A DNA stretch of 31,479 nt from the IMG/VR virus record IMGVR_UViG_3300038678_000280, positions 1 to 31,479 of that record; one strand, given 5' to 3'. The first letter of the stretch is position 1; each line of letters starts with the position of its first letter. Shown in pieces: positions 2,240-31,479 of this stretch. This stretch comes from a virus. Below the pieces are notes generated by a model, which saw nothing but the letters and a program-made list of their open reading frames with translations, was not told where the DNA came from and did not search any database. Made by a program: the position numbers and the translations under genes.

Positions 2240-3157
2240 TTATACACCTGTTTTTGGCTTTGCTTGTATAAAGTTTCTTTTTTCTTCTGTATCTGATCCA
2301 TTTGCATTTGTAGCTGTAAGTTCTATGTCCCAATCCTCTGTACACCAAGGAGGGATTATTCCTTGATAGAATTTTTTAAGTGTTATAGACATAAAGTATT
2401 GATATGTTCCTATATTTTGAGGAGAAACTACACACCAGTATTCTTTTCTTGGTCTTGCTCCATTCCCTTTAGGTATGTCGCCTGTTGGAGGTTGTTTTAA
2501 CCAGCATGCCACTGCCAAGTCTTTAAATATCTTATTTCTTTCGTCTTTCGTGAATTTTCCTCTTCCACTGCCTCTGGAAGCTATTCCGAAAGGGTCAAGT
2601 ACTCCAGGTTTTATTATTGGTGTAAAGTCTAAAGGTCTTGTAGGGTCTGGATTTGGATTGTCTTGGCTTTCTTCGCTATCGTCTGGTATGTCTCTTTCGA
2701 AACGTTTAGGTCTTGGTGGTTGAGGTGCTAATGGGGGGACGAGGTTTACAGGTTCGTCATCATAAAAAGGTTCTTCTTCTTGTGTAAATTCTTCTATAGG
2801 GTCAACTACTTCTTCTTCGTCGTTATCTGTTTCGTCTTCTGCATTTTTTAAGTTTCTTATACAGATTTCTTTATCTATTATCTTTTCTTCTTTATCTTTA
2901 TCATCTTGATCTTCATCTTCTTCGTCATTATCTGTTTTCTTTTCAGCTTTTTCCTTTTTTCTTTTCTTTTTCTTTTTTTTCTTTAATTTCTTTAATTCTG
3001 AGGATGGTAATTCGTGAATCTCTTTTTCTGTTGTTGGATTTATTATTCTTTTTCTTTCTCTTTTGGATTCTTCATCATCTGTAAATATGGGGTCTTTTAC
3101 GAATCTTGTAGGTTTCCTTTTTATTCTTGTTCTTGCTTTTTTCTTTCTACAAACCAT
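2240..3157 (-). CDS. Charged low-complexity protein, unknown function
   Basis: The product has 305 residues. The N-terminal third is strongly basic with a Lys-rich run (about residues 56-75), followed by alternating Asp/Glu-rich and Pro-rich segments to about residue 190. The C-terminal 110 residues are more normal and globular, with aromatic and Cys/Trp positions (for example CWLKQPP, YWCVV, PPWCTEDWDIEL). It is the last gene of the structural operon and starts a few bases after the previous stop with no good SD, so translational coupling is likely. A disordered N-terminus plus a small C-terminal domain would fit a virion-associated or minor structural protein, but no family is recognised. 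Confidence 0.7.
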   Translation of the reverse strand: MVCRKKKARTRIKRKPTRFVKDPIFTDDEESKRERKRIINPTTEKEIHELPSSELKKLKKKKKKKRKKEKAEKKTDNDEEDEDQDDKDKEEKIIDKEICIRNLKNAEDETDNDEEEVVDPIEEFTQEEEPFYDDEPVNLVPPLAPQPPRPKRFERDIPDDSEESQDNPNPDPTRPLDFTPIIKPGVLDPFGIASRGSGRGKFTKDERNKIFKDLAVACWLKQPPTGDIPKGNGARPRKEYWCVVSPQNIGTYQYFMSITLKKFYQGIIPPWCTEDWDIELTATNANGSDTEEKRNFIQAKPKTGV

Positions 3158-3160
3158 ATT

Positions 3161-3820
3161 TTAAGGTGAATCGGTGTCAAAAAGTTCTAAAGGATTTTCT
3201 AATGTTGAGAATTCAACAAATGCATCTCCTGAACCTGAGACTTTTCTTTTCCAAGACCAAGAAGTGGGGCTTCCAGTTGATGTGTCTGTAAATTGACAAT
3301 TAATTGTTTTTATTCCTGTTCTTGGTGTTCCTGAAAAGTTTGCTACTGGTGGTGTAGGTAATGCAAACGAGTAACCCGTAGGATTGAATGGTCCACTAGG
3401 ATGTGTTGGCGAAATTTCAACTCTATAAATATTTCCGTTGTTAAAAGTTCCTACAGCAAAATCATCTCCGGAGTCTACAAAAGATACTGCTATTGATGCC
3501 CCGTTTGTTGGGTTTGGTGGCATTGGTCGCCATTCTGATCCTGTCCACCCTTGAAGTGCATCCGCTCCTGCTGATCCTACAGCAAAGAATTCTCCACCAG
3601 AGACTAATAGGTATCCCCATCTATAGGTAATTCCTTTTGTTACTGTTACCGAAATAGGCAAATCAAAGGTAGTTTCTGTTTGAGTTATATTTATAACTTT
3701 GTTTGAACCTTGAAACAGAATATTCGCATCTTCATCAAATATTGCTGGTTTTAATGTTCGCGTTGCTTCTGCTCCTGCGGCTGCTCTTATTGTGAATTTG
3801 GTTGTTGTTGTTGTTGCCAT
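3161..3820 (-). CDS. Putative virion protein with C-terminal partial PKD domain
   Basis: The product has 219 residues. The N-terminus is Thr/Ala-rich beta-type sequence. From about residue 165 it reads like the PKD beta-sandwich family (PVANFSGTPRTG, then CQFTDTSTGSPTSWSWK). The domain stops soon after the usual ENP position, before the last strands, so it is truncated compared with typical PKD modules. PKD domains mediate protein or glycan contacts in surface and phage structural proteins. The start is 2 nt after the stop of the connector gene and lacks an SD, so expression is probably coupled. A stabilising or decoration role is inferred from position only. Confidence 0.6.
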   Translation of the reverse strand: MATTTTTKFTIRAAAGAEATRTLKPAIFDEDANILFQGSNKVINITQTETTFDLPISVTVTKGITYRWGYLLVSGGEFFAVGSAGADALQGWTGSEWRPMPPNPTNGASIAVSFVDSGDDFAVGTFNNGNIYRVEISPTHPSGPFNPTGYSFALPTPPVANFSGTPRTGIKTINCQFTDTSTGSPTSWSWKRKVSGSGDAFVEFSTLENPLELFDTDSP

Positions 3821-3822
3821 AA

Positions 3823-4281
3823 TTAGAAGTAATCTAATTTTCTTGGTGCTAAAGTAGGATTTATTCTATCTCCATCTCTATTGAATTTTGCTTTCTTTAC
3901 AGTTGGTTCTACTCCTGCTTTTGTTGTTAATATTTGGTCGAAGTTTGTTGATAAATCTGGACCTGTTCTCATCGCTCTTAAACGAGATACAATTGTTTTT
4001 GCTTCCTGGAAGAATGGCTGGTATGTTGAAAACTCAAAACCTGCAGTAGTTGAATTTGATTTGAGTATTATTCCTACTGCATAATTTGCTTCAGCAAGAA
4101 CAATCATTTTATCTACTGTTCCAGTAAACGGTACGGTGTATCTGTCACGTAACTGAGAATTTAACCATTCATTAGCAAGTTCTCTTTCATCGTCAAAGTC
4201 TGATAAACTTGCTGCATATCCTGGTGTTGTTGCTATCCCATGAAATAGTAATTCTAATTCAGCATCCGTACTATACGCCAT
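3823..4281 (-). CDS. DUF1320 / Mu gp36-like head completion protein
   Basis: The product has 152 residues. The N-terminal stretch (ELELLF, then DDERELANEWLNSQLRDRYTVPF) matches the helical DUF1320 family, to which Mu gp36 belongs. These proteins sit at the head-tail interface of phages with Mu-type heads. The SD AAAGGAG lies 9 nt before the ATG, and the gene overlaps the end of the preceding membrane-protein gene by 11 bp. In relatives it lies close to the capsid gene. Here it is separated from it by the block of exported proteins, an unusual order. The family call is by pattern recognition without a profile search. Confidence 0.65.
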   Translation of the reverse strand: MAYSTDAELELLFHGIATTPGYAASLSDFDDERELANEWLNSQLRDRYTVPFTGTVDKMIVLAEANYAVGIILKSNSTTAGFEFSTYQPFFQEAKTIVSRLRAMRTGPDLSTNFDQILTTKAGVEPTVKKAKFNRDGDRINPTLAPRKLDYF

Positions 4282-4594
4282 CTGATGTTTCTCCTTTCTT
4301 TGTGTCTGTTTCTCTTCTTAAATTTCTTTTAATACTTGCTTCTGATTCTAAATATATAACTCTTTCTGATATCTCTTTTAATTCTTTGGTAAATGTTCTT
4401 TCCATTCTATCTAATGATTCTCTAAAAACCGTTTGTATCTCACTGATCGAATCTGTTATTTTGTCATATCTTTTATCATGTTTTTTGTACTGTAGCATAT
4501 TTGCAAAACAATATGAAATAAGAGCAACTATCACATTTCCTGTGAATATTGTTAAGCCTAATACATATGGATGTTGTAATACACTTTTTGGCAT
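4271..4594 (-). CDS. Membrane-anchored coiled-coil protein, possible lysis function
   Basis: The product has 107 residues with one transmembrane helix near the N-terminus (about residues 10-32), then a charged heptad-like coiled coil (about 38-90, SISEIQTVFRESLDRMERTF and onward). The size resembles XhlA-type haemolysin/holin helpers, though there the coiled coil usually precedes the membrane helix. A spanin-like role is another option. The SD AAGG lies 5-6 nt before the start. It follows the two-helix membrane protein at 4678-4899, so the pair could be the lysis cassette, but no endolysin is recognised nearby. Confidence 0.6.
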   Translation of the reverse strand: MPKSVLQHPYVLGLTIFTGNVIVALISYCFANMLQYKKHDKRYDKITDSISEIQTVFRESLDRMERTFTKELKEISERVIYLESEASIKRNLRRETDTKKGETSDGV

Positions 4595-4607: not shown

Positions 4608-4700
4608 TTATAAGATATTAAAAACCCTTAATAAAACTATAATTATTGTTCCAATTGCTGATTGTATTAAAATTTTGTTAAGGTTTAATTTCTTTGTCAT
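4608..4700 (-). CDS. Possible 30-residue membrane peptide overlapping the upstream gene
   Basis: An ATG at 4700 opens a 30-codon frame (MTKKLNLNKIL, then a hydrophobic run through residue 30). It overlaps the last 23 bases of the 4678-4899 gene and fills the gap before the 4271-4594 gene. It reads as a single membrane segment with a basic N-terminus. The SD is poor (AAAAG), so translation is uncertain, but overlapping tiny membrane ORFs are common in phage lysis regions. Confidence 0.35.
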   Translation of the reverse strand: MTKKLNLNKILIQSAIGTIIIVLLRVFNIL

Positions 4701-4899
4701 CTTTTGCTTTGTCATCTTTTATCATATAATTTTCTATTAACTTAGAAACAATAACGCCTGTAGCAAAAGCAAATACTGTCATTGGTTTTATGTCGTCTGT
4801 TTCTTTCCCTGTATATTTACCGACAACATATGCTAATAATCCGCAAAAATATATTAATATCCCAGCCCTTATATAAGATCTTAATTTTTCCCTGTTCAT
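4678..4899 (-). CDS. Two-helix membrane protein, holin candidate
   Basis: The product has 73 residues with two hydrophobic segments (about 12-30 and 43-58) and a charged Lys/Asp C-terminal tail, the layout of small class II holins. Start choice: the ATG at 4899 has AAGGAG at 8 nt and overlaps the preceding stop as TAATG. An ATG 18 bases upstream has no SD. Placement after the exported-protein block and before another membrane protein suits a lysis or anchoring role. There is no sequence motif that proves holin activity. Confidence 0.6.
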   Translation of the reverse strand: MNREKLRSYIRAGILIYFCGLLAYVVGKYTGKETDDIKPMTVFAFATGVIVSKLIENYMIKDDKAKDDKEIKP

Positions 4900-6218
4900 T
4901 AAAATAACTCCTTCCATAATATAGATGCATCAAAGGTTGCACTATTTGCGCTTGTACCTGAAACTGTTAGGGTGTCTCCAGGTACCAACAGTATTTCTAA
5001 TTGTGTTAAATCTCCTGCTGCTGAATCGTTTTTCCCTGCTAATAAACCTCCGAACAGTCTTGATCCTCCTGTGACTGTGGTTCCTGATGTGTCAATCTCT
5101 ATAACTGAATTCGTTGTGTTAATATCTGAATATGATGGTACTCCACCTAATGTCGCATTAAAAATAAAACTTATATTACCTAAATTGTTAGCTGAACTAG
5201 CTTCTATTGCTCCTGCTGTTCTTTCTAACAAAATATCAATAAAATTTACTTTTCCGGCATATGTTGTTTTATTTCTTATTGTGAATATCGCAACTTCTGT
5301 GGTAACTGATGTTTTTTCTATTACACCTGAAGTTTGATGTCCACTCTGAAGCTCTGTTAAACTTGTTTTCCCTTCTGTAAAATAACTATAAGATGAAGAC
5401 TTCATAACTATATCACTAGTAGTTGCTTTGTTACTAGAGCATATAGTGAAATTAAAATTAGGATTAAAAACTGAAGGGATTGTATTTTGATTTGTATAAT
5501 CTATTGTATGAAAAGCAAATAAACGACCAGTTTTATCATCTTCTATTAAATATTCAATAGCTCCTGCTCCTAAATACTGAAATCTTATACCAAAAACATT
5601 TAACTTCGTTTCATCTAATATCATCCCTGACGAACCAGAGCCGTCCAAAGGATCATCAAATATAGATATATTATCTGCTAATGTGTCATTCTGGAATCGT
5701 ACAATACTGAATGTGTCACCGTTGCACCCTAACATATATCCATTATTAAATGTCGTATTTGATCCGACTTCTCCTGCCAATCCTATGTATTGCTCTGTTC
5801 CTGCTGTGCATCCAGTAAATAAAGCTGTGAACCTTGTTAAACCTCCCAGTCCGGCTCTATACTTTGCGTGCTGTTTTGACTTTAGTATTGCTATACTTCC
5901 GGTGGTTGTTCCAGTACTTATAACCGCCATCGCTTGTGACTGTGTTACTGTTCCCGAATTTGTAGCTGTGTTGATTATTAAATCTGTATTTGATACTGTG
6001 TATTCAAAACTTCCTTGGAATACTGGTGATAATTCTATTGTTCTTACATCACCAAATGCTGAAAGTGGAATAGGTGGATTTTGGTTTGTTAATGACGTGG
6101 AAAGTATAGGTGTGTCATATGCATTTAAAAGTTTTTCTACTAACTTTGTTTCTTGTGCATATGATTTAGGTATGAAACTAACTACTAAAATTAAAGCAAA
6201 AAAAAAAGCTTTTTTCAT
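4899..6218 (-). CDS. Exported beta-rich virion-like protein
   Basis: The product has 439 residues. It opens with a textbook Sec signal peptide (KK, hydrophobic core, cleavage after SYA near residue 21). The mature part is Ser/Thr/Asn-rich beta sequence. Residues about 120-175 (GGLTRFTALFTGC, then a GYMLGCNGDTFSIV-like stretch) resemble concanavalin-like jelly-roll domains found in phage head or fibre proteins. It is co-transcribed with four other genes carrying signal peptides and is translationally coupled (TAATG) to the holin-like gene. Export of a structural protein from the infected cell is unexpected for a phage with an HK97-type head. Surface display on the host, or assembly at the envelope, are the alternatives. 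Confidence 0.7.
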   Translation of the reverse strand: MKKAFFFALILVVSFIPKSYAQETKLVEKLLNAYDTPILSTSLTNQNPPIPLSAFGDVRTIELSPVFQGSFEYTVSNTDLIINTATNSGTVTQSQAMAVISTGTTTGSIAILKSKQHAKYRAGLGGLTRFTALFTGCTAGTEQYIGLAGEVGSNTTFNNGYMLGCNGDTFSIVRFQNDTLADNISIFDDPLDGSGSSGMILDETKLNVFGIRFQYLGAGAIEYLIEDDKTGRLFAFHTIDYTNQNTIPSVFNPNFNFTICSSNKATTSDIVMKSSSYSYFTEGKTSLTELQSGHQTSGVIEKTSVTTEVAIFTIRNKTTYAGKVNFIDILLERTAGAIEASSANNLGNISFIFNATLGGVPSYSDINTTNSVIEIDTSGTTVTGGSRLFGGLLAGKNDSAAGDLTQLEILLVPGDTLTVSGTSANSATFDASILWKELF

Positions 6219-6245
6219 ATTATTTAACTCCTGACATTTTTAAAA

Positions 6246-6761
6246 TTAACGTGGAAGAAAACATCTAAAAGTATTTATATCGTTGTCTGCTCCTTTTGAT
6301 ATTGTTGTTATGCTTCCTGCCCCCATAAGGGCAAAATTACCTCCGAAACCTTCATCTATTACATCGTCGGTCCATTCTGCATCATCTGCTTCGTCTGTTA
6401 AAGTAAAGTTGTTCATAGATATATACCATTCATTTACAGATGGTAGCTTCCCACCATATAAAGTAAAACATGAATCTGCTGCCTCAAACCAATTCGCCGT
6501 ACTTTCTTCTGTTGTTTGCATACACCCTAATTTATTACCTGATATTATTATGTCTGTGAATCCACTTGGGCATGTGGGATCTTTTGATTTTGTTGTTTGA
6601 CTAGTGCCATCTGAAAAGTTAATTGTAGAAAAATTACCATCAATATCTATTTGGTTTTCTAATCCTTTCCATACTTTAGTTGTTCCTAATTTAGTTTGTG
6701 AAAAAGTAATGTTACAAATTATTGTACTTATTATTATTGAAGTAAAAAAAATGTATTTCAT
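6246..6761 (-). CDS. Exported protein with C-type-lectin-fold-like domain
   Basis: The product has 171 residues with a signal peptide (MKYIFF, hydrophobic core, cleavage after TFS near residue 21). The next 35 residues share the QTKLGTTK-x-W ... DGT-x-QTT module with the adjacent 528-residue fibre. The C-terminal part (WFEAADSCFTLYGGKLPSV, then NEWYI and a final TFRCFLPR) has the spacing of Cys, Trp and Gly typical of C-type-lectin/sulfatase-modifying-like folds used for receptor binding. It may be the ligand-binding tip associated with the longer fibre. No retroelement is present, so a diversity-generating system is not indicated. Confidence 0.65.
   Translation of the reverse strand: MKYIFFTSIIISTIICNITFSQTKLGTTKVWKGLENQIDIDGNFSTINFSDGTSQTTKSKDPTCPSGFTDIIISGNKLGCMQTTEESTANWFEAADSCFTLYGGKLPSVNEWYISMNNFTLTDEADDAEWTDDVIDEGFGGNFALMGAGSITTISKGADNDINTFRCFLPR
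6674..6698 (-). repeat. 25-bp exact repeat in a shared N-terminal module (copy 1)
   Basis: These 25 bases are identical to 8240-8264. Both copies encode the QTKLGTTK region just after the signal peptide cleavage sites of two neighbouring exported proteins. Identity at the DNA level in otherwise divergent genes points to recent module duplication or recombination. Confidence 0.8.
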
Positions 6762-6767
6762 TCTGTT

Positions 6768-8354
6768 TTAACTCCCATCACAAATACCATCTGTATCTAT
6801 TGTGCATGTTAAAGTTCCATTTAAAGTAAAACATTCAGTCCATCCTGCATTATCTGTATCTCTAAACATTAAACAACCTCCACCTGAAGATGCATTAATT
6901 GTTATTCCTGTATTTGCTCCCCCATTAACATGTAATAAACTACTTGGTGTTGTTGTTCCTAATCCTATGTTGCCAGTACTTCCAATATATAATCTTCCTG
7001 AAATTGTTGTAGTTCCATCTGGAACAGTGCTAAATGTCATACTTGTTGGCATTGAATTATTGCCTACTGTTCCTAATGGATCTATATCCGCACTAAATGA
7101 TGCACCTATAATATTAGTCCCATTTGGGGCTCTACCTCTAAATGAAAACAAACCTAATGTGTCACTATTTGTGACTGAGGTTGGAGATGCAGTAGATCCT
7201 CTTGCTCTAATCAAAGATATATCTGTAGAACTTGAGCTATTATTTCTTTGAAAAAAAACATTAGTATTGTCATGTATAATTGAAAAAGGTATTAGTCCTA
7301 CATTTCCTGGTGGCTTGCCTATTGTTATTCCACTTGTAGTTCCGTCTCCGATCCCTATTGCTAAAGCTGTTTGTGGTGTTGAAGTTCCTATTCCTATATT
7401 TCCTGATGAAATAGTTGTTGCTGTTCCATCTATTCCCGTTCCAAATATAAGATTGCCAATGTTTAATGTATTTGAATCTGTTGCTATTTGGATATCTATT
7501 TCGTGCCCAATCAATATATTATTGTCGCCTGTTGTTAAATTATCTCCAACTTTATAACCTATTCCAATGTTATTATTTGCTGTTGTTGCATTAAAGAAAT
7601 TATCCGTTCCTATCCCTATGTTATTATTCCCTGTATACCCTGCTCCTGAATCTCCAATACTTATGTTGTCATCACCTGTTGAAAAAAATAAACCATTTGA
7701 TCCAAAGTTTATATTTCTATTTCCTGATACATTTGTATTTAATCCGAATTCTCCACTGTTTATATTAAAGCTTCCTGTTGTTATGTTTTCTTGCCCATTT
7801 GAACCTATGTTTATATTTTCATCTCCAGTAGTTAGGTTCTGGAAAAATGTAGCCCCAATTCCAATATTTCCATCTCCATTATTTATTGATGTTGTTCCTA
7901 TATCAATCCCAATGAAGTAGTTATCATCTGATGTTGATAAAGTTGGTTTAATAACTCCTGGTCCTAAAAAAAGTCCTTTATCATCTGTGTCTATATCAAA
8001 GACTGTTTGACTTCCAATTTTATAAACTCCTGTTGTATCAATATCCCCATCAACAGTCAGCATATTCCCTGTCGTAGTCGTTCCAATACTAACTGTATCT
8101 GTTATCTCACTAGGATGTAATGTTTGTCCTGTATCTGTCCATTCTTCGTTTCCTGCTCCTCCTGCTGTTGTTTGTATTGTTCCGTCTGGAAATGTTAAAG
8201 TGCCTTCAACAGAAAACATGTCTTCTAATGCTACCCAAGCTTTAGTTGTTCCTAATTTAGTTTGGGCTAAACAAACCCCGCAAATAACAGATAATAATAT
8301 TAATATTCCTGGGAAAATAATGAAAATTAGTTGGTCTTTTTTGTTGAAATTCAT
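6768..8354 (-). CDS. Exported repeat fibre, YadA-head-like
   Basis: The product has 528 residues. The signal peptide has a hydrophobic core at about residues 9-28 and probable cleavage after CLA. Residues about 150-310 consist of a run of short repeats around NNxIGIG and NLTTGDNNI, the left-handed beta-roll pattern seen in YadA-type trimeric adhesin heads and in some phage fibres. Motifs of the form IGLGTTTPSSLL-x-V-x-G recur at about 330 and 480. The C-terminus is Cys-containing and compact. It is likely a trimeric fibre or adhesin used for host recognition. The signal peptide suggests secretion across the inner membrane instead of cytoplasmic virion assembly. No chaperone domain is seen. 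Confidence 0.7.
   Translation of the reverse strand: MNFNKKDQLIFIIFPGILILLSVICGVCLAQTKLGTTKAWVALEDMFSVEGTLTFPDGTIQTTAGGAGNEEWTDTGQTLHPSEITDTVSIGTTTTGNMLTVDGDIDTTGVYKIGSQTVFDIDTDDKGLFLGPGVIKPTLSTSDDNYFIGIDIGTTSINNGDGNIGIGATFFQNLTTGDENINIGSNGQENITTGSFNINSGEFGLNTNVSGNRNINFGSNGLFFSTGDDNISIGDSGAGYTGNNNIGIGTDNFFNATTANNNIGIGYKVGDNLTTGDNNILIGHEIDIQIATDSNTLNIGNLIFGTGIDGTATTISSGNIGIGTSTPQTALAIGIGDGTTSGITIGKPPGNVGLIPFSIIHDNTNVFFQRNNSSSSTDISLIRARGSTASPTSVTNSDTLGLFSFRGRAPNGTNIIGASFSADIDPLGTVGNNSMPTSMTFSTVPDGTTTISGRLYIGSTGNIGLGTTTPSSLLHVNGGANTGITINASSGGGCLMFRDTDNAGWTECFTLNGTLTCTIDTDGICDGS
8240..8264 (-). repeat. 25-bp exact repeat in a shared N-terminal module (copy 2)
   Basis: This is the partner of 6674-6698, located just downstream of the signal-peptide codons of the 528-residue fibre gene. 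Confidence 0.8.
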
Positions 8355-8363
8355 TTCTTATCC

Positions 8364-8852
8364 TTATTGAAATTTCCCTGAAATGTTTACTAAATCTGTA
8401 CCTGCTGTTCCTGAACCTGATACTCCAACTCTAACAAAATCCGGTGATTCTAATATATTGATTGGCTTTGCTATTGTCATAGTCCCTGTCACTTCAATTG
8501 TTAGTATATCGTTCCATACTGTTGTTGTTCCGATTTCGCTTTCAACTCTAATAACTACAGCATCAGAACCTAATTGTGGTATGTAATATTGAAGATTTCT
8601 AACTAATACTGCATGACGTGTGATTAATGATCCTGAAGTTGTCGAAGTTCCAGAATCATTATTATAAAAAAAAGTGTTTGTTCCTGCGGGATTGAAGTCT
8701 GAGAAGAAAATTACATTTTGGCCTGGATTATTACCAGTAAAGTCTGTGATTGTTAAACCATTTTTGGTTCTTGCCTCTGCTAATGAACTGAATAAGATGA
8801 TAAAACCAATTAATAAAAACCCTATACATAAATGCCTTTTTTTTTTATTCAT
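8364..8852 (-). CDS. Exported beta-rich protein, unknown function
   Basis: The product has 162 residues. The start at 8852 is preferred to one 51 bases upstream because it overlaps the preceding stop (TAATG) and opens directly on a Sec signal peptide (MNKKKRH, long hydrophobic core, cleavage after AEA near residue 27). The mature sequence is beta-rich with many Gly, Ser and Thr. It begins TKNGLTITDFTGNNPG and ends without any recognisable motif. It sits between the other exported genes and probably contributes to the same surface structure. Confidence 0.65.
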   Translation of the reverse strand: MNKKKRHLCIGFLLIGFIILFSSLAEARTKNGLTITDFTGNNPGQNVIFFSDFNPAGTNTFFYNNDSGTSTTSGSLITRHAVLVRNLQYYIPQLGSDAVVIRVESEIGTTTVWNDILTIEVTGTMTIAKPINILESPDFVRVGVSGSGTAGTDLVNISGKFQ

Positions 8853-9352
8853 TATTTTTGTATCCAATTTGAACCATCTGAAATAATATTTAAACCATCC
8901 CACTGAGTCGTAATTGTTCCAGCTAAATCAGAATCAATGGTTTGAGTGCCTGAGGTTATCACAGTTATAGTACCTGCACTTGAATCAATTTTTATGATAT
9001 TTAATTCTCTTCCAACTTGTCCTACTGCGGTTAACAATGAGTAAGCTAATATAGCTGATGTTGTCCCTGTGAACAGCACCACTGAATGTGTTCCTACTTG
9101 AGTAGTATTAGTTCCTAACGATGTGACATTTGTTGCTATAGGCCCTAATACCATCAATGATGACGATGGTGTTGTTGTTCCCAATCCTAAATCTTGCATA
9201 ATGATTACATTTCCGTCATCAATATGCAATTTTCCTTCTACTATTAAAGTATTTCCTCTATGGTAGTTCGGCCATGATTCTGCAAAAGCCGAACTACTTA
9301 AAGAGAAAATGCCAGCAAAAACAATTAACGAAATTAATAATTTTTTACGCAT
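8852..9352 (-). CDS. Exported protein with LGLGTTTP fibre motif
   Basis: The product has 166 residues. The signal peptide is clear (MRKKLLISLIVFAG, cleavage after AFA near residue 24). The motif DLGLGTTTPSSSLMVLG (about 54-70) is the same element found in the 528-residue fibre, linking the two. The C-terminal half (TQVGTHSVVLFTGTTSAI and onward) is beta-type and ends GSNWIQK, a pattern like trimeric fibre tips. It is the first of five genes with signal peptides, directly after the small gene that follows the capsid gene. Confidence 0.7.
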   Translation of the reverse strand: MRKKLLISLIVFAGIFSLSSSAFAESWPNYHRGNTLIVEGKLHIDDGNVIIMQDLGLGTTTPSSSLMVLGPIATNVTSLGTNTTQVGTHSVVLFTGTTSAILAYSLLTAVGQVGRELNIIKIDSSAGTITVITSGTQTIDSDLAGTITTQWDGLNIISDGSNWIQK

Positions 9353-9713: not shown

Positions 9714-10673
9714 TTAGCTTATTACATTTTGAAGTAAATAACCTGAACATGCACTTGTTATTTTACTGTCAGAAATGTCAAGTGTTGCATTTACAACTTC
9801 TGATTTATTTGCTCTCTCTTCATATGTTTGTATATCTCTTCCTTTTGCCTGAAAATTATACGCAAATGAAGGGTCTTGCTTTATTGGTTCTGGTTTATCA
9901 TTTACAAATCCGATAAATACATTTTTGCCCCAAAGTCTTGCCAATGTTTCAGTCGATCCAATTAAAGAAGAAACTTGTCTGGAACCTGGCACTACTAATT
10001 TTAAGCCCCATAATGAAGGTGGGATTAATTCATCTGTCAACAAACGTGAATCTTGGTTTTTTATTAAGGCTCTGATTTGCGGACTTTGTCTAATTTTTCT
10101 CCATACCTGTATAGGTATTGATATTTTATTTGGTTCAAAACCTTCCAAAGCTACAAGTTCTCTTGCTATTTCTACGTCTCCCTCTATATCTCCGTTGATG
10201 AAATCATCCCACTGGTTATTAGGTGATGCTGACAAATCTTTAACATGTGTCGCATCGTAATTACCTGATGTTTCTATTAAAGTTGCTGCTCTTTTTTCTT
10301 TCGCTATAAGTAATAACCCTATCAAGTATTCCATTGTTGATTTACCAAGATTCAAAGCTTTATTCTTGTTTTGTTTGAATTCTCTGTTATCAATTGGTAA
10401 TTCTAATGAATGTTCTATACCTGAATAAGACTGTACAGTTGTTGTAAATCTTAATGGGGTATTTGACCTATTAGTCAAAGCTCTTGTGTCATCAATGTTA
10501 CTATTTAAATTTTCTTTGGCGAACAAGAAATAATTTCCTTGTTCGTTATCTTCTCCTACATCAACAATTGGAATTAGTTCGTCTGCTGCAAAACCGTAAT
10601 TTCCAAATTTAATTGATAACTGTTGTAATATTATGTTCGTTTTAGGAACATCACTAATACTAATGAATCCCAT
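9714..10673 (-). CDS. Major capsid protein, HK97 fold, Mu gpT-like
   Basis: The product has 319 residues, the size of Mu-type capsid proteins. The N-terminal IPIVDVGEDNEQGNYFLF, central LELPIDNRE and later WGLKLVVPG, GKNVFIGFV and the closing beta segment follow the order seen in capsid proteins of phages with DUF935 portals. It sits directly downstream of the decoration protein, which follows the protease/scaffold gene, the standard Mu-type order. It forms the icosahedral shell. Assignment is by pattern and context; a structural search would settle it. Confidence 0.75.
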   Translation of the reverse strand: MGFISISDVPKTNIILQQLSIKFGNYGFAADELIPIVDVGEDNEQGNYFLFAKENLNSNIDDTRALTNRSNTPLRFTTTVQSYSGIEHSLELPIDNREFKQNKNKALNLGKSTMEYLIGLLLIAKEKRAATLIETSGNYDATHVKDLSASPNNQWDDFINGDIEGDVEIARELVALEGFEPNKISIPIQVWRKIRQSPQIRALIKNQDSRLLTDELIPPSLWGLKLVVPGSRQVSSLIGSTETLARLWGKNVFIGFVNDKPEPIKQDPSFAYNFQAKGRDIQTYEERANKSEVVNATLDISDSKITSACSGYLLQNVIS

Positions 10674-11186: not shown

Positions 11187-12479
11187 TTATACTTTTAAAT
11201 CTCCTGCTGCTTGTAACAGGTTAAATGCTTCTTCATAGCTTATTTTATTCTTTTCTGAATATGTAAGTATTTTGTTATGTAATTTTGTTACTGGATCACC
11301 ATTAGCTGGTTGTGTTATTTCTGCGTTCATTGTTATATCTTCAGGTGCTTCTAGTGTTCTATCTTTCATTCTCTGCTGTATCATTGTCAATATTTTTAAC
11401 AATATATCATCTTCTGCATAAGTCAAATGTGGCGATACCTCTTCTATGAATGCAGGACTAAATGATTTAGCTAAACTTTTTTCTATCTTCTCTTTGTTCA
11501 TTGATTTTAATGCTGCACTTGCAACTAAAACTTTATTGTTACTTTGTTTTAAATCTTCTGATAGTTTGTCAAATTCTCCTTTACTTGTTTTGAGTTGTTC
11601 TCCAAATAATAATATTTCATCATTTGTTTTTTTCTGACCCTCCTGCAAAGTTTGAATTTCTATTTTTTGTTGTTTAATTATTTCGTCTTTATCCATATTA
11701 CTGTCTTTCTCTATTGAATTTTCTAAAATATAATGTTGTTCTTCTTCTGAATTATAAATTAATGTTAAATCTTTTAATGTTTTTATTTTAGGTATATCAG
11801 CTCCTAAAATTGCTACTGCTCTTAATGCTGGTCCGTGTGATTCTCCTTTTGAATCAATATAATCTACATAAATTTCTGATGATACTCTTTTGTATTGTCC
11901 TCCTTCTATCAAAGTTACAATTTCTTCAGGAACATTTGAAAATTCTGCTATTATTTTTTTTGTGTTATTTAATCTTTTTACATTAATTATTTCGCCAGCG
12001 TTAGGATAACCTTCTTTTTGTATTAAATTTTGTTCTTCTTCATGTCCTAATTTTATTGGTGGTCTTATTTCTTCTCTTAATTTGTAAAAATTATCGACTA
12101 TTTCATCTAAGATTTGTTCGTTTTCATTTTCAAAAACTTCTTGAAATCCTATGTTTTTTCCTTTTGATAAATTTAATTCTGCGAAATATAATGGACATCC
12201 ATATTGGATTGCTGATTCACATTTTTCTGCATATTCTAGATAATTATCTGGTTCATTATCTAATGTTAAACAAACACATGAATCACAAAAATCGCATTTT
12301 GATATTAAATCTAAATTTGTATCTTTTTCTGTTAAATTATCTATTTCAAATGGATATGTAAATTTTTTATTTTCACTATATGGAAAATAAAATATATTAT
12401 TTTTTTTGTTTATTATTTCTGGTTGTTTACTTGTAAATGATGGATATGGAAAAGGATATGTATATTTTTGTTTTGTCAT
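11187..12479 (-). CDS. Prohead protease/scaffold, Mu gpI-like
   Basis: The product has 430 residues in three parts. The N-terminal about 115 residues contain a cysteine cluster (CDFCDSCVC). A protease domain (about 125-235) has PPIKLGHEE, EFSNVPEEI, YKRVSSEIY and GPALRAVAILGADIPKI, the conserved landmarks of the Mu gpI-like family including its likely catalytic His and Ser. A helical Glu/Lys-rich scaffold region fills most of the remainder. In Mu the scaffold is also made separately from an internal start; a candidate here is MDKDEII, though its SD is weak. The Cys-rich N-terminal extension is unusual for the family. Confidence 0.75.
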   Translation of the reverse strand: MTKQKYTYPFPYPSFTSKQPEIINKKNNIFYFPYSENKKFTYPFEIDNLTEKDTNLDLISKCDFCDSCVCLTLDNEPDNYLEYAEKCESAIQYGCPLYFAELNLSKGKNIGFQEVFENENEQILDEIVDNFYKLREEIRPPIKLGHEEEQNLIQKEGYPNAGEIINVKRLNNTKKIIAEFSNVPEEIVTLIEGGQYKRVSSEIYVDYIDSKGESHGPALRAVAILGADIPKIKTLKDLTLIYNSEEEQHYILENSIEKDSNMDKDEIIKQQKIEIQTLQEGQKKTNDEILLFGEQLKTSKGEFDKLSEDLKQSNNKVLVASAALKSMNKEKIEKSLAKSFSPAFIEEVSPHLTYAEDDILLKILTMIQQRMKDRTLEAPEDITMNAEITQPANGDPVTKLHNKILTYSEKNKISYEEAFNLLQAAGDLKV

Positions 12480-12921: not shown

Positions 12922-13965
12922 TTATTGGTTTTTCTTTTTCCAAAATAAGTAAGTGTTTCCACTTTCTGATAGTTTCAATTTTTTTAATATATATTTACCA
13001 TTTAAGTTCTTTGATTCCGAAAATTCTAAACTTTTCCCATTTTCTTTTATTTCTTCTTTATATTGTCCCATATCAATTAATATTTTGCTGAAGTTTTTCT
13101 TTTTAGGTTCTTTAATTACTGGATTTTCAGAAAACACCATTGCTCCAGAATTCAATCTTTTGAAGATTATTGTTTTTGCGTTTTTTATGAATTTATCTAA
13201 TTTTTCATGTTCTTTTAAGTTTTTTTGTTTTATTAATAAAGGTTTAGGACAATATTCATCATTCCTTATTAATAAAAATTCATTTTGATTTTCTTTTTTT
13301 AATTCTATTAAAACTTCTGTGTTTTCGTTTTCTTTTACTAGTAATGAAATAGTGAATTTATTACCTTCTTTTTCCTGTTGGTTAACTGTTTGATTAAATG
13401 GCCCTTCTTCATGTTTATGTATTCCTAATCCTTTGTTTTCATGATATCCGTCACTTATTTTACTATCTTCATGTGTATGGCCTGACCCTTCTCTTCCAGG
13501 CTGATGTGAATGTGGTCCTGATGGCCTTGTTAGTCCTGGGTGTAAATGGTTTCCTGCGTTTTGTTCATGTGGATGTTGATGCCTTCCATCAAGCTCTAAT
13601 TCTTGATTCATTTCTATTTCTTTTTGTTTATAGTGTCTGAAATTCTTTAAATCTTTTAATGATTGTTTCCAATCTCCATTAAATTGTATAGCTCTGTCAT
13701 CAAGATATATATTTGCAACTGGTTTATGTTCCGGAATTTTATCTACTTCTATTTCATTTTCTCTTAACCAATTTAAAATTGCTTTTCTTCCTTTTTCTGT
13801 TTTTGTTCTTGATGAAAATATTACTACTTCAAATCCTGCTTTTTTGATTTCTTTTATTGCTTCTTTTGCTCCTTTTACTGGTTCGTCTTCTATAATATCT
13901 ATATCTTTGAATGCTGTTGTCGCAGAGTGGATCACTCCGTCGAAATCTAGTGCAATTTTTATCAT
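12922..13965 (-). CDS. HAD-fold hydrolase fused to a His-rich linker and unknown C-terminal domain
   Basis: The product has 347 residues. Residues 1-115 are a HAD-superfamily domain: motif I DFDG (7-10), motif II Ser in IFSSR (about 51), Lys 81 and the DD of YLDDR (89-90), so the catalytic set looks intact for phosphoryl transfer. Residues 129-185 contain 12 histidines, mostly in HxH pairs among Gly, Pro and Ser, a likely metal-binding or flexible linker. The C-terminal 160 residues are a mixed alpha/beta region of unknown type. The gene overlaps the portal stop by 4 bp and sits inside the head cluster, so it is made with virion proteins. The fusion is not one I recognise. Confidence 0.7.
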   Translation of the reverse strand: MIKIALDFDGVIHSATTAFKDIDIIEDEPVKGAKEAIKEIKKAGFEVVIFSSRTKTEKGRKAILNWLRENEIEVDKIPEHKPVANIYLDDRAIQFNGDWKQSLKDLKNFRHYKQKEIEMNQELELDGRHQHPHEQNAGNHLHPGLTRPSGPHSHQPGREGSGHTHEDSKISDGYHENKGLGIHKHEEGPFNQTVNQQEKEGNKFTISLLVKENENTEVLIELKKENQNEFLLIRNDEYCPKPLLIKQKNLKEHEKLDKFIKNAKTIIFKRLNSGAMVFSENPVIKEPKKKNFSKILIDMGQYKEEIKENGKSLEFSESKNLNGKYILKKLKLSESGNTYLFWKKKNQ

Positions 13966-15323
13966 TCGTTACCCTCCTTTTCTTTTTTTTCTTCTTCTCT
14001 TTCTTTTTTCTTTTCTTCTCGTTCTTCTTTTCTCTCTTTTGTTTTTTCTTCTCTTTCTTCTTTTCGTTCTTGCCGTTTTTCTTCTCTTTCTTCTTCTTTT
14101 TCTTGTCGTTTTTCTTGTCTTTCTATTTCTTTCTCTTGTCGTTTTGTTTCTCTTTCTTCTTCTTCGTCTTTTTCTGGTATAGTAGTTTCTTCTGTTTCTC
14201 TTTGATTTGGGTCTGTTTTTGGTATTACAAATTCAAATATTGGTGGTAAAGGATTAGCAAAATTTAGATTTATTATTCTTTTTATTATCTGATTGTTTAT
14301 TGCTCCTTTTAATAAATCTGCTCCATCACACTTATATTCAAACCTTACGTCTGAGTGTGCTTTAGATAAAGCGTAACTCCCTTTTCTTCCTTCTTCTACT
14401 GATTGTGTTGCTCCTAGTACTAATTTTGACATTTCAGCGTTACAGACATCTATTAAGTCCCTATATGAAATGTCGCCTTGTGCTGTTTTTATGAATTCTA
14501 TACAAAATGTATCTGGCAATGTAATTCCTATTTCATTTTGTAAATCATCAAGTGCTTGTAATGCTTGATTTTGTAAATTTGAATCTGTTTCTCCTGCAGG
14601 GTATTTAATTACTGCTGTTGGAGCTCCATATCTTTCCAGGAATATACCCCAAAATTTTAGTCCTACTTCTTTTTTAAACCAATGATACCAGTAAGCTTTT
14701 TCTAGTAACGGATCACCATATGGATTTCCAAATCCTTCAAAAATCACATGAACTAATTTTTGTGCAGGAATTTCAACTTCTTCCCCTTTTTTCATATCTG
14801 TGAATAGAATTTTAAATCCTGTTTCTGGTTTTGCTTCAAATCTAAATAATTTTTGTTTATGAAAGATCAAATTATAAATGACAGTTTTACCGTCCCATCT
14901 ACCACTTACTTGTGTCTTTGTTATTATTTCATGTATTGAAAATCCTTTTGGTATTGCGTCTAATATGTTCTTAAAATGAACTGGTAAATCTCCTTTCATT
15001 TCCATTAAAACAAACCACATAAAATCTAATTGTTCTTTCGCTTCTGGTGTGTCATTGAAAGGTTTTAATATATACGGAAAGCTACAAGCTCCTATTTTTC
15101 TTGTGTTCATTATTGAATATAAATGAGGGTCTCTTGCTAGGATTTTATCATAATATTCTAGTCCTTCAAATTCCAAGACTTCATCAGGTGATCTAATATC
15201 TAAATTATATTTTGATCTTATTTTTTCATTTGTTAATATGATTTCATTTTTTTCTGTTCCTATTTTTGGTTCTATGTTTTTTGTTATTTTGTTTTTTGGT
15301 ATTGTTTTTGGTTTTGTTTTCAT
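13962..15323 (-). CDS. Portal protein, DUF935 (Mu gp29-like), with long charged helix
   Basis: The product has 453 residues. The core follows the DUF935 pattern: DPHLYSIMNTRK, IPKGFSIHEII, then NPYGDPLLEKAYWYHWFKKE, FLERYGAPTAV and GATQSVEEGRKGSYALSKAH. The portal forms the dodecameric ring for DNA entry and docks the terminase. The last 65-75 residues are almost only Glu, Lys, Arg and Gln in alternating blocks, the signature of a stable single alpha helix. Such a long charged tail is not part of the usual DUF935 portal and would project from the ring. It lies directly downstream of the large terminase. Confidence 0.8.
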   Translation of the reverse strand: MKTKPKTIPKNKITKNIEPKIGTEKNEIILTNEKIRSKYNLDIRSPDEVLEFEGLEYYDKILARDPHLYSIMNTRKIGACSFPYILKPFNDTPEAKEQLDFMWFVLMEMKGDLPVHFKNILDAIPKGFSIHEIITKTQVSGRWDGKTVIYNLIFHKQKLFRFEAKPETGFKILFTDMKKGEEVEIPAQKLVHVIFEGFGNPYGDPLLEKAYWYHWFKKEVGLKFWGIFLERYGAPTAVIKYPAGETDSNLQNQALQALDDLQNEIGITLPDTFCIEFIKTAQGDISYRDLIDVCNAEMSKLVLGATQSVEEGRKGSYALSKAHSDVRFEYKCDGADLLKGAINNQIIKRIINLNFANPLPPIFEFVIPKTDPNQRETEETTIPEKDEEEERETKRQEKEIERQEKRQEKEEEREEKRQERKEEREEKTKERKEEREEKKKEREEEKKEKEGNE

Positions 15324-15337: not shown

Positions 15338-16834
15338 TTAAAATTTATCATAAATAATATGTTTGTTTCTATTTCCTATTTGTCTGTTTTTCCCTATTTT
15401 TATTACCCTTGATTCTTTATTCACAGACAAATTTCTTCCTACGCTTTTCATTGATCTATATGTGAAGTCATAAGTATATGCGTTTTGAGCCGCTCCCAAT
15501 GCTAATGCTATACTATCTACATAATCTTCATGTTCTCCTTTTGGTGCGTTTAATTGTAGTAAACTTCCTCTATAATGTTTTTCTACTTTTAAAAACTGTT
15601 CTGTTAATTTTAGAAATCTTTTTATTCTTGTTATTGGCCTTGTAAGTTGATATTTTTGCACTACTTCAACTAGTTTTGAATGTAATGTATGAATATTGTA
15701 TGCTGTTATTGGTGTTACTTTTCTTCCAAAAACTGCTTGTAAAAAGTCTGTATTTGCATCTCCTACTCCTGTTGATTCTGCCCATATTGCAGTTGGGTCG
15801 TAAATGTTTATAAATTCTGTTATTTGTCTATGCTGTTCAGGATAATTATCTTTTTGTAACTCTAATAAATCAATTATTCTATATTGGTCTGACATTTTTT
15901 CTATGATTGAACATACAGTTGAATCTGTTTTTTTTCCCCAATCTATACCACAAAATAAGTGATTACCTGTTTGTTCTCCTATTTGATGATTGCTTAATAA
16001 TCTTGTATCTTCCCAAATTTCAATAGGAAAAGCATTCCCTGTTGATAAAACCCATATTAAATCAAAATTTAATTGCCATTCTATAGATTCTTCGCCTAAT
16101 CTTCCTTTTTCTTTACTACACCATGTTTTATATGGTTTAGAATATTTTTGTGCAACTTTGTATGTGACCTTTAAATGTAATCCATTTCTTTTATTTGTAT
16201 TATATCTTATCTGTTTTATGAATGGTCCTAAGGACGTATATGCTGAACCATACATTAGTGCGGATCCATTAGTTGATGCTAACATTGGATTGAAGACTTT
16301 GTATATAGCGTACTGACAGAGTTTTTGTGCTTCATCGTATGCTATTAGGTGGAAAGACTCTCCTTCGTTGAATGAGGTGGGGTTGCCGCTCATTGCTTTT
16401 ACTTTTGAGCCGTTTGATGTTTCAAAATTATCTTGATTAGATGAAATTATTTTAATTCTTAATTCTTTTAAAACTTCTTGAAACGATTCACTTTTTGCTA
16501 AATTCTTCATTCTTCTTAATGCGATTCTTGCTATTTCTATTTTTGGGCCAACTATACCAACATGAAATCCTTTTTTGAAATATTTAAGATGTGGATATTG
16601 TTTTAAGTACTTTTTTGTATTTGCTAATGCTGGCAATAATATTATACATGTAGCTATTGTGGCTAAATATGTAGTTGTTTTTCCTGATTGCCTGGCCGCT
16701 TCTCTTGTTAAAATATCCCCTGAACCTTTTATTATGTTTTCAATGCATATTTTAATATCTTTGTCTTGGTAAGGATATAAGTCACAATCAATTATCCTTT
16801 TTTGTAATGATTCAAAGTTTTTAGGTAATATCAT
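15338..16834 (-). CDS. Large terminase subunit (packaging ATPase/nuclease)
   Basis: The product has 498 residues, normal length. ATPase domain: Walker A REAARQSGKTTT (44-55) and Walker B HLIAYDEAQ (162-170). Nuclease domain of RNase H fold: GIDWGKKTDS (296-305), WAESTGVGDANTDFL (about 350-365) and a C-terminal acidic position in EHEDYVDSIALALG. It packages the genome through the portal, cutting concatemers if a headful mechanism is used. The gene begins 2 bp after the exonuclease stop. It is the best functional anchor for the window being a phage. Confidence 0.92.
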   Translation of the reverse strand: MILPKNFESLQKRIIDCDLYPYQDKDIKICIENIIKGSGDILTREAARQSGKTTTYLATIATCIILLPALANTKKYLKQYPHLKYFKKGFHVGIVGPKIEIARIALRRMKNLAKSESFQEVLKELRIKIISSNQDNFETSNGSKVKAMSGNPTSFNEGESFHLIAYDEAQKLCQYAIYKVFNPMLASTNGSALMYGSAYTSLGPFIKQIRYNTNKRNGLHLKVTYKVAQKYSKPYKTWCSKEKGRLGEESIEWQLNFDLIWVLSTGNAFPIEIWEDTRLLSNHQIGEQTGNHLFCGIDWGKKTDSTVCSIIEKMSDQYRIIDLLELQKDNYPEQHRQITEFINIYDPTAIWAESTGVGDANTDFLQAVFGRKVTPITAYNIHTLHSKLVEVVQKYQLTRPITRIKRFLKLTEQFLKVEKHYRGSLLQLNAPKGEHEDYVDSIALALGAAQNAYTYDFTYRSMKSVGRNLSVNKESRVIKIGKNRQIGNRNKHIIYDKF

Positions 16835-27698: not shown

Positions 27699-27989
27699 TT
27701 ATAATGATCTTGCAAACTTTATTGCTAAATCCCATCTGTTAGGTTTGAAACTTGCTATATGTGAATCACTTGAATTTTCAAAATGTGTGCTTATATAATA
27801 TCTTTGATAATATGTACCCATGAATACGAATATCTTTGTTCTTTCAAACCCGAAACAATTTTCATATATAATTGCTAATATATACGAGTTTTTGAATTCT
27901 GCTTTCTTTATTAATCTGAATTTTGTTGGGTCTGATCCTGATTCGTTTTGTTTTTGGTCTTTTCTGTTACTTGGTGATAAAAGTCCCAT
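27699..27989 (-). CDS. Hypothetical protein (96 residues)
   Basis: The product begins MGLLSPSNRKDQKQNESGSD and continues as mixed alpha/beta with aromatic strands (YILAIIYENCFGFERTKIFV, YYQRYYISTHF). SD AAGGA lies upstream. No family is recognised. Confidence 0.65.
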   Translation of the reverse strand: MGLLSPSNRKDQKQNESGSDPTKFRLIKKAEFKNSYILAIIYENCFGFERTKIFVFMGTYYQRYYISTHFENSSDSHIASFKPNRWDLAIKFARSL

Positions 27990-28004
27990 TCCTTATTCCT
28001 TTCT

Positions 28005-28254
28005 TTAAAATTCTTGTAACTTCTTTAATAAATAATTAGCTAATTCTTTTAAGTCTTTAATCTCTTTTTTGTATCTTTCTTCTTGGTTGTCGTATTTATG
28101 TGGAATACTAAAGAAAAATATATATCCTCCTTCGTCTCTGATTCCATATGGGGTTTGATCTTTGTAAGTTATTTCTAATTTTTTTTGGTCTTTTTTCTGT
28201 TTGTTCTTTTTGCTTTTTCTTAAGACTGTGACTGATGTAATGTCTTGTGTCCAT
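28005..28254 (-). pseudogene. Frameshifted or recoded small gene (about 83 codons)
   Basis: An excellent SD (GGAGG, 7-8 nt) precedes ATG at 28254, but the ATG frame closes after 48 codons. The +1 frame is open from the start to 28005 and encodes TQDITSVTVLRKSKKNKQKK, GGYIFFFSIPHKYDNQEERY and a C-terminal coiled coil. The +1 frame has no start codon of its own. Skipping one G after ATG gives MTQDITSVTV. Either a one-base insertion has disabled the gene or the shift is programmed. A poly-A stretch of eight further in offers a second possible slip site. Confidence 0.55.
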
Positions 28255-28275
28255 GCCTATTTCCTCCTTTCATGA

Positions 28276-28788
28276 TTAATCCTCGTTACTCACTAACTTT
28301 TTAATTGTTTCATCTTTTAAGAATCCTGCCTTACCTAATTTATCGACAATCTTAGCTGCAAATATTAGGTCATACTTTTTCGTTAAGTCTTCTATAAACT
28401 TGTTTGCCATATTTTCTGTTTTTTCTTCTAGGAATTTATAAGCTTCTGTTCTCCAATTACTATTTTCTTTAAAAAGATTTTCAATGTGATCTGTTATTTT
28501 TATAGACATAGGGAATCCAGGAAGCTTTATCTCTCCTTCTTTCATTAACTGTCTGACTTTTCTCTTTACTTTTATGTCCAGATGTAACAACACTTTCTCT
28601 TTTACTGCTTCTGATATAGACCTTTTTAAATCTTCACCTATATCTTCCTTTATCTTTTTTACTATGGCATAGGTTACCTGGTCTTTAATTACTTCTGACA
28701 CGGATTCAAAACTACAATCATTTTCTGAATTGCAATTATCTACTTCTGGATAAATATCTTCTAAATTCACTTCTATTTTCATTTTCAT
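28276..28788 (-). CDS. Helical hypothetical protein (170 residues)
   Basis: The product is acidic/basic and nearly all helical (VIKDQVTYAIVKKIKEDIGE and onward). The start overlaps the previous stop by one base (TAATG). It may be a structural or regulatory helical bundle. No family is recognised. Confidence 0.7.
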   Translation of the reverse strand: MKMKIEVNLEDIYPEVDNCNSENDCSFESVSEVIKDQVTYAIVKKIKEDIGEDLKRSISEAVKEKVLLHLDIKVKRKVRQLMKEGEIKLPGFPMSIKITDHIENLFKENSNWRTEAYKFLEEKTENMANKFIEDLTKKYDLIFAAKIVDKLGKAGFLKDETIKKLVSNED

Positions 28789-29021
28789 TATTTTTCCTCT
28801 TTAATTTTCGGTAATGGCCCTAACCATCCTTCTATTTTAAATTTAATCTTTTGATCTGAACCTGGTCTGAACCATTTACCTATCCAAATTAAAACTTCTC
28901 TCTTTAAATGTCTCCAAGGTAATCCTTCTTTGTAGTAAACTAAATATGTTCCTTTTTCCGTTGGGTTTTTGTTGAATTGTAATAATGCAAGTATTTGTGA
29001 TTCTGTGTCTTCTTCTTTCAT
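28788..29021 (-). CDS. Small aromatic protein (77 residues)
   Basis: The product begins MKEEDTESQILALLQFNKNP and contains VYYKEGLPWRHLKREVLIWI and GKWFRPGSDQKI, rich in Trp/Tyr. It overlaps the zinc-ribbon start/stop of the upstream 48-residue gene by four bases (ATGA). It resembles small DUF551-type phage proteins in length and Trp pattern, but this is weak. Confidence 0.6.
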   Translation of the reverse strand: MKEEDTESQILALLQFNKNPTEKGTYLVYYKEGLPWRHLKREVLIWIGKWFRPGSDQKIKFKIEGWLGPLPKIKEEK

Positions 29022-29164
29022 GATTTTCTATTCCTTTTATTACAAATAAAACATTTAAATACTTCTGGTGCGTCACCTCTGCATCGCGGACATGATCCGT
29101 GTAATAAACGCCATCGTCCGAATATTCTATGGATTCTTTTCTTTGGGTTTAATATTACTGTCAT
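29018..29164 (-). CDS. Short zinc-ribbon protein (48 residues)
   Basis: The product begins MTVILNPKKRIHRIFGRWRL, then CPRC (25-28) and CFIC (38-41): a compact zinc ribbon with a basic N-terminus. SD AAAGGAA lies before the ATG, and it ends with an ATGA overlap with the following gene. Too short for default gene callers, but the motif and coupling are persuasive. Confidence 0.7.
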   Translation of the reverse strand: MTVILNPKKRIHRIFGRWRLLHGSCPRCRGDAPEVFKCFICNKRNRKS

Positions 29165-29190
29165 AAATGTTTCCTTTCTGATGATTAAAT

Positions 29191-29403
29191 TTACGTAATT
29201 TGCTTATCTATCGGCTCTATCCATGTCTTACGTTTTCTTATCCAGCAGTCATACTGGCCTCTATCTACATTTGGAACTGTATTTGAAAAGACAAAACCTG
29301 CTTTATACATATTTCCTATTAAGTCCCATTCTTTTATAGCTTTACGCATTTGTCTTAAAAGCTTTTTGTCGTTTAATATCTGGTCTATTCTACTGTTATA
29401 CAT
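29191..29403 (-). CDS. Small hypothetical protein (70 residues)
   Basis: The product starts MYNSRIDQILNDKKLLRQMR and is helical, with a GQYDCWIRKRKTWIEP C-terminal patch. SD AAGGAAA. No family is recognised. Confidence 0.6.
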   Translation of the reverse strand: MYNSRIDQILNDKKLLRQMRKAIKEWDLIGNMYKAGFVFSNTVPNVDRGQYDCWIRKRKTWIEPIDKQIT

Positions 29404-29464
29404 TTTTAATATTTTCCTTTTTTACGGTTAGATTAAATTACGGAATTTGCGGAATTGTATTAAG

Positions 29465-31022: not shown

Positions 31023-31107
31023 CTCTGTTCTCCTAATAAAAAATAAAAATAACATAAAAATAAAAAACATTCTTGCTAACAGTGTTGAAAGATCAAAGAT
31101 TCATAAA

Positions 31108-31452: not shown

Positions 31453-31479
31453 AATTAAAACTCCTAAAAGAAAAAAAAA
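31353..31479. repeat. Right copy of exact 127-bp terminal repeat
   Basis: This is the second copy of bases 1-127. It contains the start codon, the SD sequence (AGGAG, 8 nt before the ATG) and the first 33 codons of the SLOG-family gene. When the ends are joined, that gene lies directly downstream of the zinc-ribbon gene at 181-393. Confidence 0.95.

Follow-up and report, generated by a model that had tools for sequence, protein, structure and literature searches.

Predicted export signals on a block of fibre-type proteins in a circular phage genome suggest virion building across the cytoplasmic membrane

The window, by which we mean the whole 31,479-nt stretch of IMG/VR record IMGVR_UViG_3300038678_000280 that was analysed, has an exact direct repeat of 127 nt at its ends (positions 1–127 are identical to 31353–31479), and thus represents a circular, probably complete genome of 31.35 kb. 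Nearly all genes, including every one given with coordinates below, lie on the minus strand. The gene order starts with small early genes, including those for a replication initiator, an SSB-like protein and RusA, followed by genes for an RNase H-like protein, the large terminase subunit (TerL; 15338–16834; PF17289, 9e-8), a Mu-type portal protein (13962–15323; PF06074, 225 bits), a HAD-domain protein, a small terminase-like protein, the head maturation protease (11187–12479; phrog_976, 5e-18), a decoration protein, the major capsid protein (MCP; 9714–10673; phrog_1005, 5e-47) and a 105-aa protein. No signal peptide (SP) was predicted for the portal protein, the protease or the MCP. Next comes the block that is the subject of this work, five consecutive genes running from position 9352 to 4899, and the order ends with two small transmembrane (TM) proteins, proteins of 152, 219 and 305 aa, and about 1.7 kb nearly free of ORFs. 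The 152-aa product (3823–4281) has no SP and no HMM match, and by eye we take it to resemble the Mu gp36-type head-tail connector. The TerL, portal and MCP matches place the genome among HK97-type dsDNA phages (Caudoviricetes).

Profile scans did not identify a tape measure, tube, nozzle or endolysin among the window proteins; the lack of a tape-measure or tail-tube match among the proteins scanned does not fit a long-tailed phage, and the longest ORF of the circular genome encodes 528 aa. The SU10_adaptor family (PF24175) was not matched by the scanned structural-region proteins, nor was a Zot-like assembly ATPase found among the window proteins scanned. Scans of viral contigs with the MCP, TerL and the 528-aa protein returned no relatives, and plasmid and Rfam searches gave no match. 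A circular 31-kb genome with terminase, portal, protease and MCP, and with the tail and lysis components listed above unrecognised, could belong to a capsid-forming satellite that borrows the tails of a helper, its exported products then being its own lysogenic-conversion surface proteins. We regard this as the least probable of the readings weighed here, given that the genome has its own replication initiator, SSB-like protein, RusA and a large early region, as full phages do, and that the proteins of a short tail may be unrecognisable.

Each product of the five-gene block begins with a predicted cleavable Sec signal peptide. Cleavage is predicted after residue 24 in the 166-aa protein (8852–9352; between MRKKLLISLIVFAGIFSLSSSAFA and ES), after residue 27 in the 162-aa protein (8364–8852; between MNKKKRHLCIGFLLIGFIILFSSLAEA and RT), after residue 30 in the 528-aa protein (6768–8354; between MNFNKKDQLIFIIFPGILILLSVICGVCLA and QT), and after residue 21 in both the 171-aa protein (6246–6761; between MKYIFFTSIIISTIICNITFS and QT) and the 439-aa protein (4899–6218; between MKKAFFFALILVVSFIPKSYA and QE). 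All five ORFs are open at these coordinates, and every N-terminus consists of a charged n-region, an unbroken hydrophobic core and a small-residue cleavage motif. The calls were made with a self-written heuristic scorer of n-, h- and c-regions, which also gives scores to some plain TM segments; it accepted OmpA, MBP and Lpp and rejected the MCP and decoration protein of the window. Among the 39 window ORFs of at least 80 aa, only these five have an SP, and they adjoin each other (chance of adjacency 6e-5), in agreement with the preliminary description, which had reported clear Sec signal peptides on all five. The lowest score, 11.1, belongs to the 171-aa protein and lies below the cut-off of 12.3 used for the neighbour-gene count given later. 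According to the same scorer, all five have the Sec/SPI pattern with small residues at positions -3 and -1, and none of the five N-termini contains the lipobox Cys of an SPII lipoprotein. The cleavage motif present in each of them differs from the pattern of uncleaved SAR signals.

A purine-rich, Shine–Dalgarno (SD)-like stretch precedes four of the five starts, with a weak one at 8364–8852, which makes wrongly assigned start codons unlikely. Almost no in-frame, SD-preceded start is located downstream of the signal peptides, the one exception being a TTG at codon 42 of the 166-aa protein gene. Contamination with host genes was rejected, since the genome is that of a circular phage whose structural operon encloses the block, and the pattern recurs in relatives.

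The fibre or lectin character attributed to the block in the preliminary description was upheld by profile matches for two of the proteins. The 528-aa protein matches the tail fibre family phrog_9942 (1.2e-12) as well as cyanophage virion proteins, and residues 41–412 of the 439-aa protein align to positions 40–405 of the 440-position profile of the virion-structural family phrog_1645 (1.7e-28). For two more the attribution was made by eye: the 171-aa protein, without a family match, has a C-type-lectin-like C-terminus with four Cys, and the 166-aa protein ends in a fibre-tip-like domain, where residues 119–164 weakly match a protein of Halorubrum tailed virus 4 (E 8e-3). For the 162-aa protein no evidence of this kind was obtained, as it had no family match, no phage match and no relatives in the searches. 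The structure prediction that had been called for was performed for the 439-aa protein; the AF2 model, based on 14 sequences and of medium-low confidence (pLDDT 68), is an all-beta, lectin-like beta-sandwich, with Foldseek matches in the PDB that include the receptor-binding domain of phage TM4 gp23, L-type lectin domains and a Bacteroides glycan-binding surface protein.

The 528- and 171-aa proteins have a common N-terminal domain, with 47% identity over the N-terminal part. Their signal peptides differ, while a close match (QTKLGTTK.W..LE) extends from the predicted cleavage site onward, so that the predicted site coincides with the boundary of conservation; the mature 528-aa protein is predicted to start with QTKLGTTKAW. 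The common domain may serve for docking. One could alternatively propose that the signal peptides stay uncleaved and act as inner-membrane anchors, akin to signal-arrest sequences, forming a platform on which tail parts are assembled. Two more TM proteins encoded directly after the block would suit such a platform, one small, with two TM segments and holin-like by look (4678–4899; no family, SD-preceded ATG at 4899), the other of 107 aa with one TM segment followed by a coiled coil (4271–4594; phrog_404 'minor tail protein', 4e-4). The same can be said of a phrog_7759-domain protein in a related phage (record G001), the hydrophobic N-terminus of which is TM-like rather than a clear SP. Nevertheless, permanent anchoring appears improbable in view of the good small-residue cleavage motifs, the Gln at position +1 in three of the five proteins, and the onset of sequence conservation at the predicted cleavage site.

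A family-alignment scan with the 439-aa protein yielded 16 viral loci and two genome loci, one of the latter being the L014 contig again. An SP precedes the family protein in four relatives, L004 (record G001), L010 (record G002), L018 and L035, as in the window, versus 16 relatives without one; it is absent from L003, L011–L017, L019–L022, and the cyanophage, phiGT1 and huge-phage homologues. Locus L023 is recoded (UGA=Gly), and only part of its N-terminus was read. In the G002 protein, what follows the SP (TYQPFKDRPLTAFGDL) aligns with the N-terminus of the L017 protein, which has no SP (M-TYKPFIDRPLTAFGDL); judged by this alignment, the SP is a clean addition to an SP-less form. An AU test of a single against multiple origins of the family protein's SP gave p = 0.22.

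The preliminary description had also proposed a search for the same block in related phages, and what this search recovered is a variable set of exported proteins. Fibre-gene neighbours with signal peptides, as in the window, are present in two of the four SP-bearing relatives (G001 and G002), whereas at the 16 loci with an SP-less homologue only 3 of 199 genes of at least 80 aa scored (Fisher p=1e-4; p=0.0075 for loci), all three of them holin-like and no longer than 102 aa. In G001, the other predicted exports are a glycine-rich fibre domain (phrog_2295) and the phrog_7759 domain, while the proteins in the adaptor and nozzle positions have no SP. L018 and L035 are intermediate, representing the case of a long-tailed phage whose family protein has an SP: in both, the family protein alone is predicted to be exported, and L018, which has a PhageMin_Tail match, contains in addition one lipoprotein-like small gene.

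The portal of phage SU10 is bound directly by the adaptor ring, to which the fibres and the nozzle are attached (PMC9509320). The G002 adaptor matches Pfam SU10_adaptor over residues 24–225 (E 5.7e-21), directly behind an SP ending at residue 22; its single-sequence AF2 model has a pLDDT of 32. The 841-aa protein that follows, in the nozzle position, and seven genes on the fibre side also have an SP, while the MCP, the portal and three large internal-type proteins have none. Scans of viral contigs with the nozzle and the adaptor returned G002 itself or nothing. In 132 genomes of the phylum Zixiibacteriota, SU10_adaptor was matched ten times, and three of the ten had a clear SP, compared to none of 30 SU10 adaptors from Pseudomonadota genomes (p=0.012). 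In contig G013:C48, no SP was predicted for SU10_portal, the MCP and proteins of 666, 413 and 1272 aa, while the adaptor, a 967-aa nozzle-like protein, a beta-helix tailspike-like protein of 697 aa and others have one. The scorer flagged an SP on the adaptor of G088:C42, where the N-terminus of an 816-aa nozzle-like protein is an SP by eye; SP-bearing genes encode the adaptor, nozzle-like and 120-aa proteins in G009:C81, and the adaptor-position gene has an SP in G043:C198. The nozzle assignments were made from position and weak PHROG matches. On the predicted signals, the division into inside and outside proteins is the same in G013:C48, G088:C42 and G009:C81 as in G002. Exceptions exist: G013, G009 and G077:C977 each have an SP-bearing gene of unassigned role close behind the portal, and no SP was detected in the 20 kb read of G077:C591, from the same phylum. 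All these contigs come from MAGs and could be mis-binned, so 'Zixiibacteriota phage' is to be taken as a lead, not as a fact. The presence of SU10_adaptor in the expected gene order in G002 and the Zixiibacteriota-binned contigs, in one case together with SU10_portal, resembles the SU10-type short tail (PMC9509320), the difference being the Sec signal peptides on the adaptor and nozzle-like proteins; the window phage, for its part, differs from SU10 in its Mu-type portal and in having no SU10 adaptor.

Export of the five window proteins is strongly indicated by their predicted signal peptides. It is based on the contiguity of the fibre-type block and on the finding of similar blocks in further tailed phages, some of which have signal peptides on the neck adaptor and the nozzle-like protein while their head and internal proteins have none. 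We give about an even chance to the explanation that the five are outer-virion proteins of the fibre or receptor-binding type, exported through Sec, in a phage that completes its virion late. They would pass through Sec, be cut by signal peptidase I and fold outside the cytoplasm, while the capsid, portal, terminase, protease and ejection-type proteins would stay in the cytoplasm, where the DNA would be packaged; in some phages the adaptor and nozzle would be exported along with the fibres. The exported proteins would then be part of the virion. DNA-filled heads would meet the exported parts only once the cytoplasmic membrane opens at lysis, which we infer to be the moment of joining, or across that membrane; with exported parts outside and heads inside, the virion would necessarily be completed late. 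G001 encodes an SP-less amidase and an XhlA-like partner, and so ordinary lysis would unite both halves in this phage.

A less probable alternative, though one with a sizeable chance, is that the five proteins are exported without being virion parts: infected cells or lysogens would display or release them, for use in adhesion, as receptor decoys or in superinfection exclusion. The lectin-like fold of the 439-aa protein indeed matches surface adhesins and glycan-binding proteins, and no recognised tail exists in the window genome to carry fibres. However, elsewhere the 439-aa protein belongs to a virion-structural family, the five genes sit within the head operon, two of the proteins have a common N-terminal domain, as in co-docking fibres, and related strategies export adaptor and nozzle-like proteins. 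The preliminary description had left three options open: that the proteins are displayed by the infected cell, that they are assembled at the membrane, or that they act as secreted adhesins. Assembly at or beyond the membrane is favoured among them, because other phages export a portal-binding adaptor and a nozzle-like protein, for which a role as free adhesins would be hard to understand. The five window proteins themselves may yet be displayed or secreted as adhesins or decoys and never enter a virion, because no recognised neck protein is exported by this phage. The window phage likewise exports no recognised tail-tube protein, and it is therefore tied to the adaptor-exporting phages by analogy.

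More tentatively, late completion of the virion could be a property of a whole unrecognised class of tailed phages, which would divide virion construction between the two faces of the cytoplasmic membrane: the head, portal and ejection proteins would stay inside, Sec would bring the adaptor, nozzle and fibres outside, and infection would end with the union of the two halves at the membrane or through it. The window phage would be an extreme member of this class: a head plus exported surface proteins, and no tail that can be recognised.

Export could also be needed primarily for oxidative folding, if disulfide-bonded receptor-binding domains require the periplasm, virion assembly being secondary. 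The mature 528- and 171-aa proteins contain four Cys each, and Cys counts are even in all 11 exported G002 proteins. But many exported proteins, including the G002 adaptor, contain no Cys, so oxidative folding cannot explain their export; counts are mixed in G001, G013 and G009, and SP-bearing members of the 439-aa protein family are no richer in Cys than SP-less ones. Export may bring some benefit through oxidative folding, but this is very unlikely to be its main reason.

In filamentous phages (inoviruses), which have ssDNA and are extruded without lysis, virion proteins enter the membrane via Sec/YidC and are assembled there. The phages described here differ in having HK97-type heads with a terminase and, in G001, a cytoplasmic amidase. 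The known phrog_1645 members, from cyanophages S-T4, S-B43 and S-CAM9 and Sulfitobacter phage phiGT1, are homologues of the 439-aa protein across most of its mature length and, like the window gene, are located in the head/neck gene region, but their N-termini are cytoplasmic, whereas the window protein has a Sec signal peptide before the conserved domain. SAR endolysins and spanins of tailed phages, such as JG068, use Sec signals (PMC3765740); these are lysis proteins, and SAR signals are uncleaved, in contrast to the virion-type proteins with cleavage motifs found here. The lectin-type receptor-binding targets of phage DGRs are reported to lack signal peptides (PMC6199706), unlike the lectin-like protein of the window, and a few unspecified signal peptides were counted in two Bacteroides phages (PMC5723332). 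Among the open-licence papers searched, none was found to describe a tailed phage whose neck or tail structural proteins have signal peptides, in line with the earlier view that it is unusual for a whole block of putative virion surface proteins to be routed to the envelope, as these are predicted to be.

The accepted view is that tailed phages assemble in the cytoplasm, and a Sec signal on a portal-binding neck protein breaks this rule. While Sec-inserted virion proteins of filamentous phages and Sec-dependent lysis proteins of tailed phages were known before, export signals on neck and tail proteins were found in none of the open-licence papers searched; they suggest an unrecognised way of building a virus particle across a membrane, and the chance that this amounts to a new mode of assembly is real. 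Questions arise as to when heads and tails meet, how the packaged DNA stays held meanwhile, whether a block of Sec stops virion completion, and whether exported receptor-binding proteins coat the infected cell. Further phages of this kind could be found by a simple sequence criterion, an SP combined with a tail domain.

As regards the host, signal peptidase I substrates of Bacteroidetes follow a +1 Gln rule, with a species mean of 71% (PMC5837995). The +1 Gln found in three of the five predicted window signal peptides suggests a Bacteroidetes-like signal peptidase. At the same time, SD sequences are used by 29 of 52 window genes, compared to a mean of 10 after shuffling, and strong SD use is an argument against a typical member of the Bacteroidota.

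The head module of the window, a circular genome of 31 kb, is of the Mu type, but no tail or lysis genes are recognisable, so that this may be a tail-less or helper-dependent element. A gene at 12922-13965, flanked by the portal and small terminase-like genes, encodes a HAD-superfamily domain protein (phrog_1238; PF13344 and PF18143 matches were below the cut-off).

The clues to the host point in different directions. Gln occupies position +1 in three of the five predicted signal peptides, as in Bacteroidetes, while strong Shine-Dalgarno sequences precede 29 of the 52 genes, a level of use unusual for Bacteroidota.

Two consecutive genes at 2240-3820 encode proteins of 219 and 305 aa. A PKD-like domain is broken off midway at the end of the former, and the C-terminus of the latter, which has a long K/E-rich N-terminal part, resembles its missing remainder. 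Judging from the sequence, the domain appears to be split between the two proteins, perhaps by a frameshift or insertion. The adjacent stretch of about 1.7 kb (540-2240), with the late genes ending on one side and the early genes beginning on the other, contains only short ORFs on both strands and had no match in an Rfam search. A small protein encoded at 30771-31070 carries two CxxC motifs after a hydrophobic, possibly lipoprotein-type, N-terminus.

Among relatives, the homologue of the virion structural family phrog_1645 in IMGVR_UViG_3300040985_001430 (L023:10001-11170) contains 29 in-frame TGA codons. These mostly occur where the family has glycine, which marks the phage as recoded with UGA=Gly, as in genetic code 25. 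Phage record G001 carries, between the MCP gene and the exported fibre block, four successive genes (27723-30167, L025) that are probably paralogues: their products, 192-216 aa long, resemble one another at the N-terminus (ILGSG..W..CPF...). At locus L018, a lipoprotein-like or TM-anchored 127-aa protein (9850-10272), possibly a spanin, is encoded close to the exported phrog_1645 family protein.
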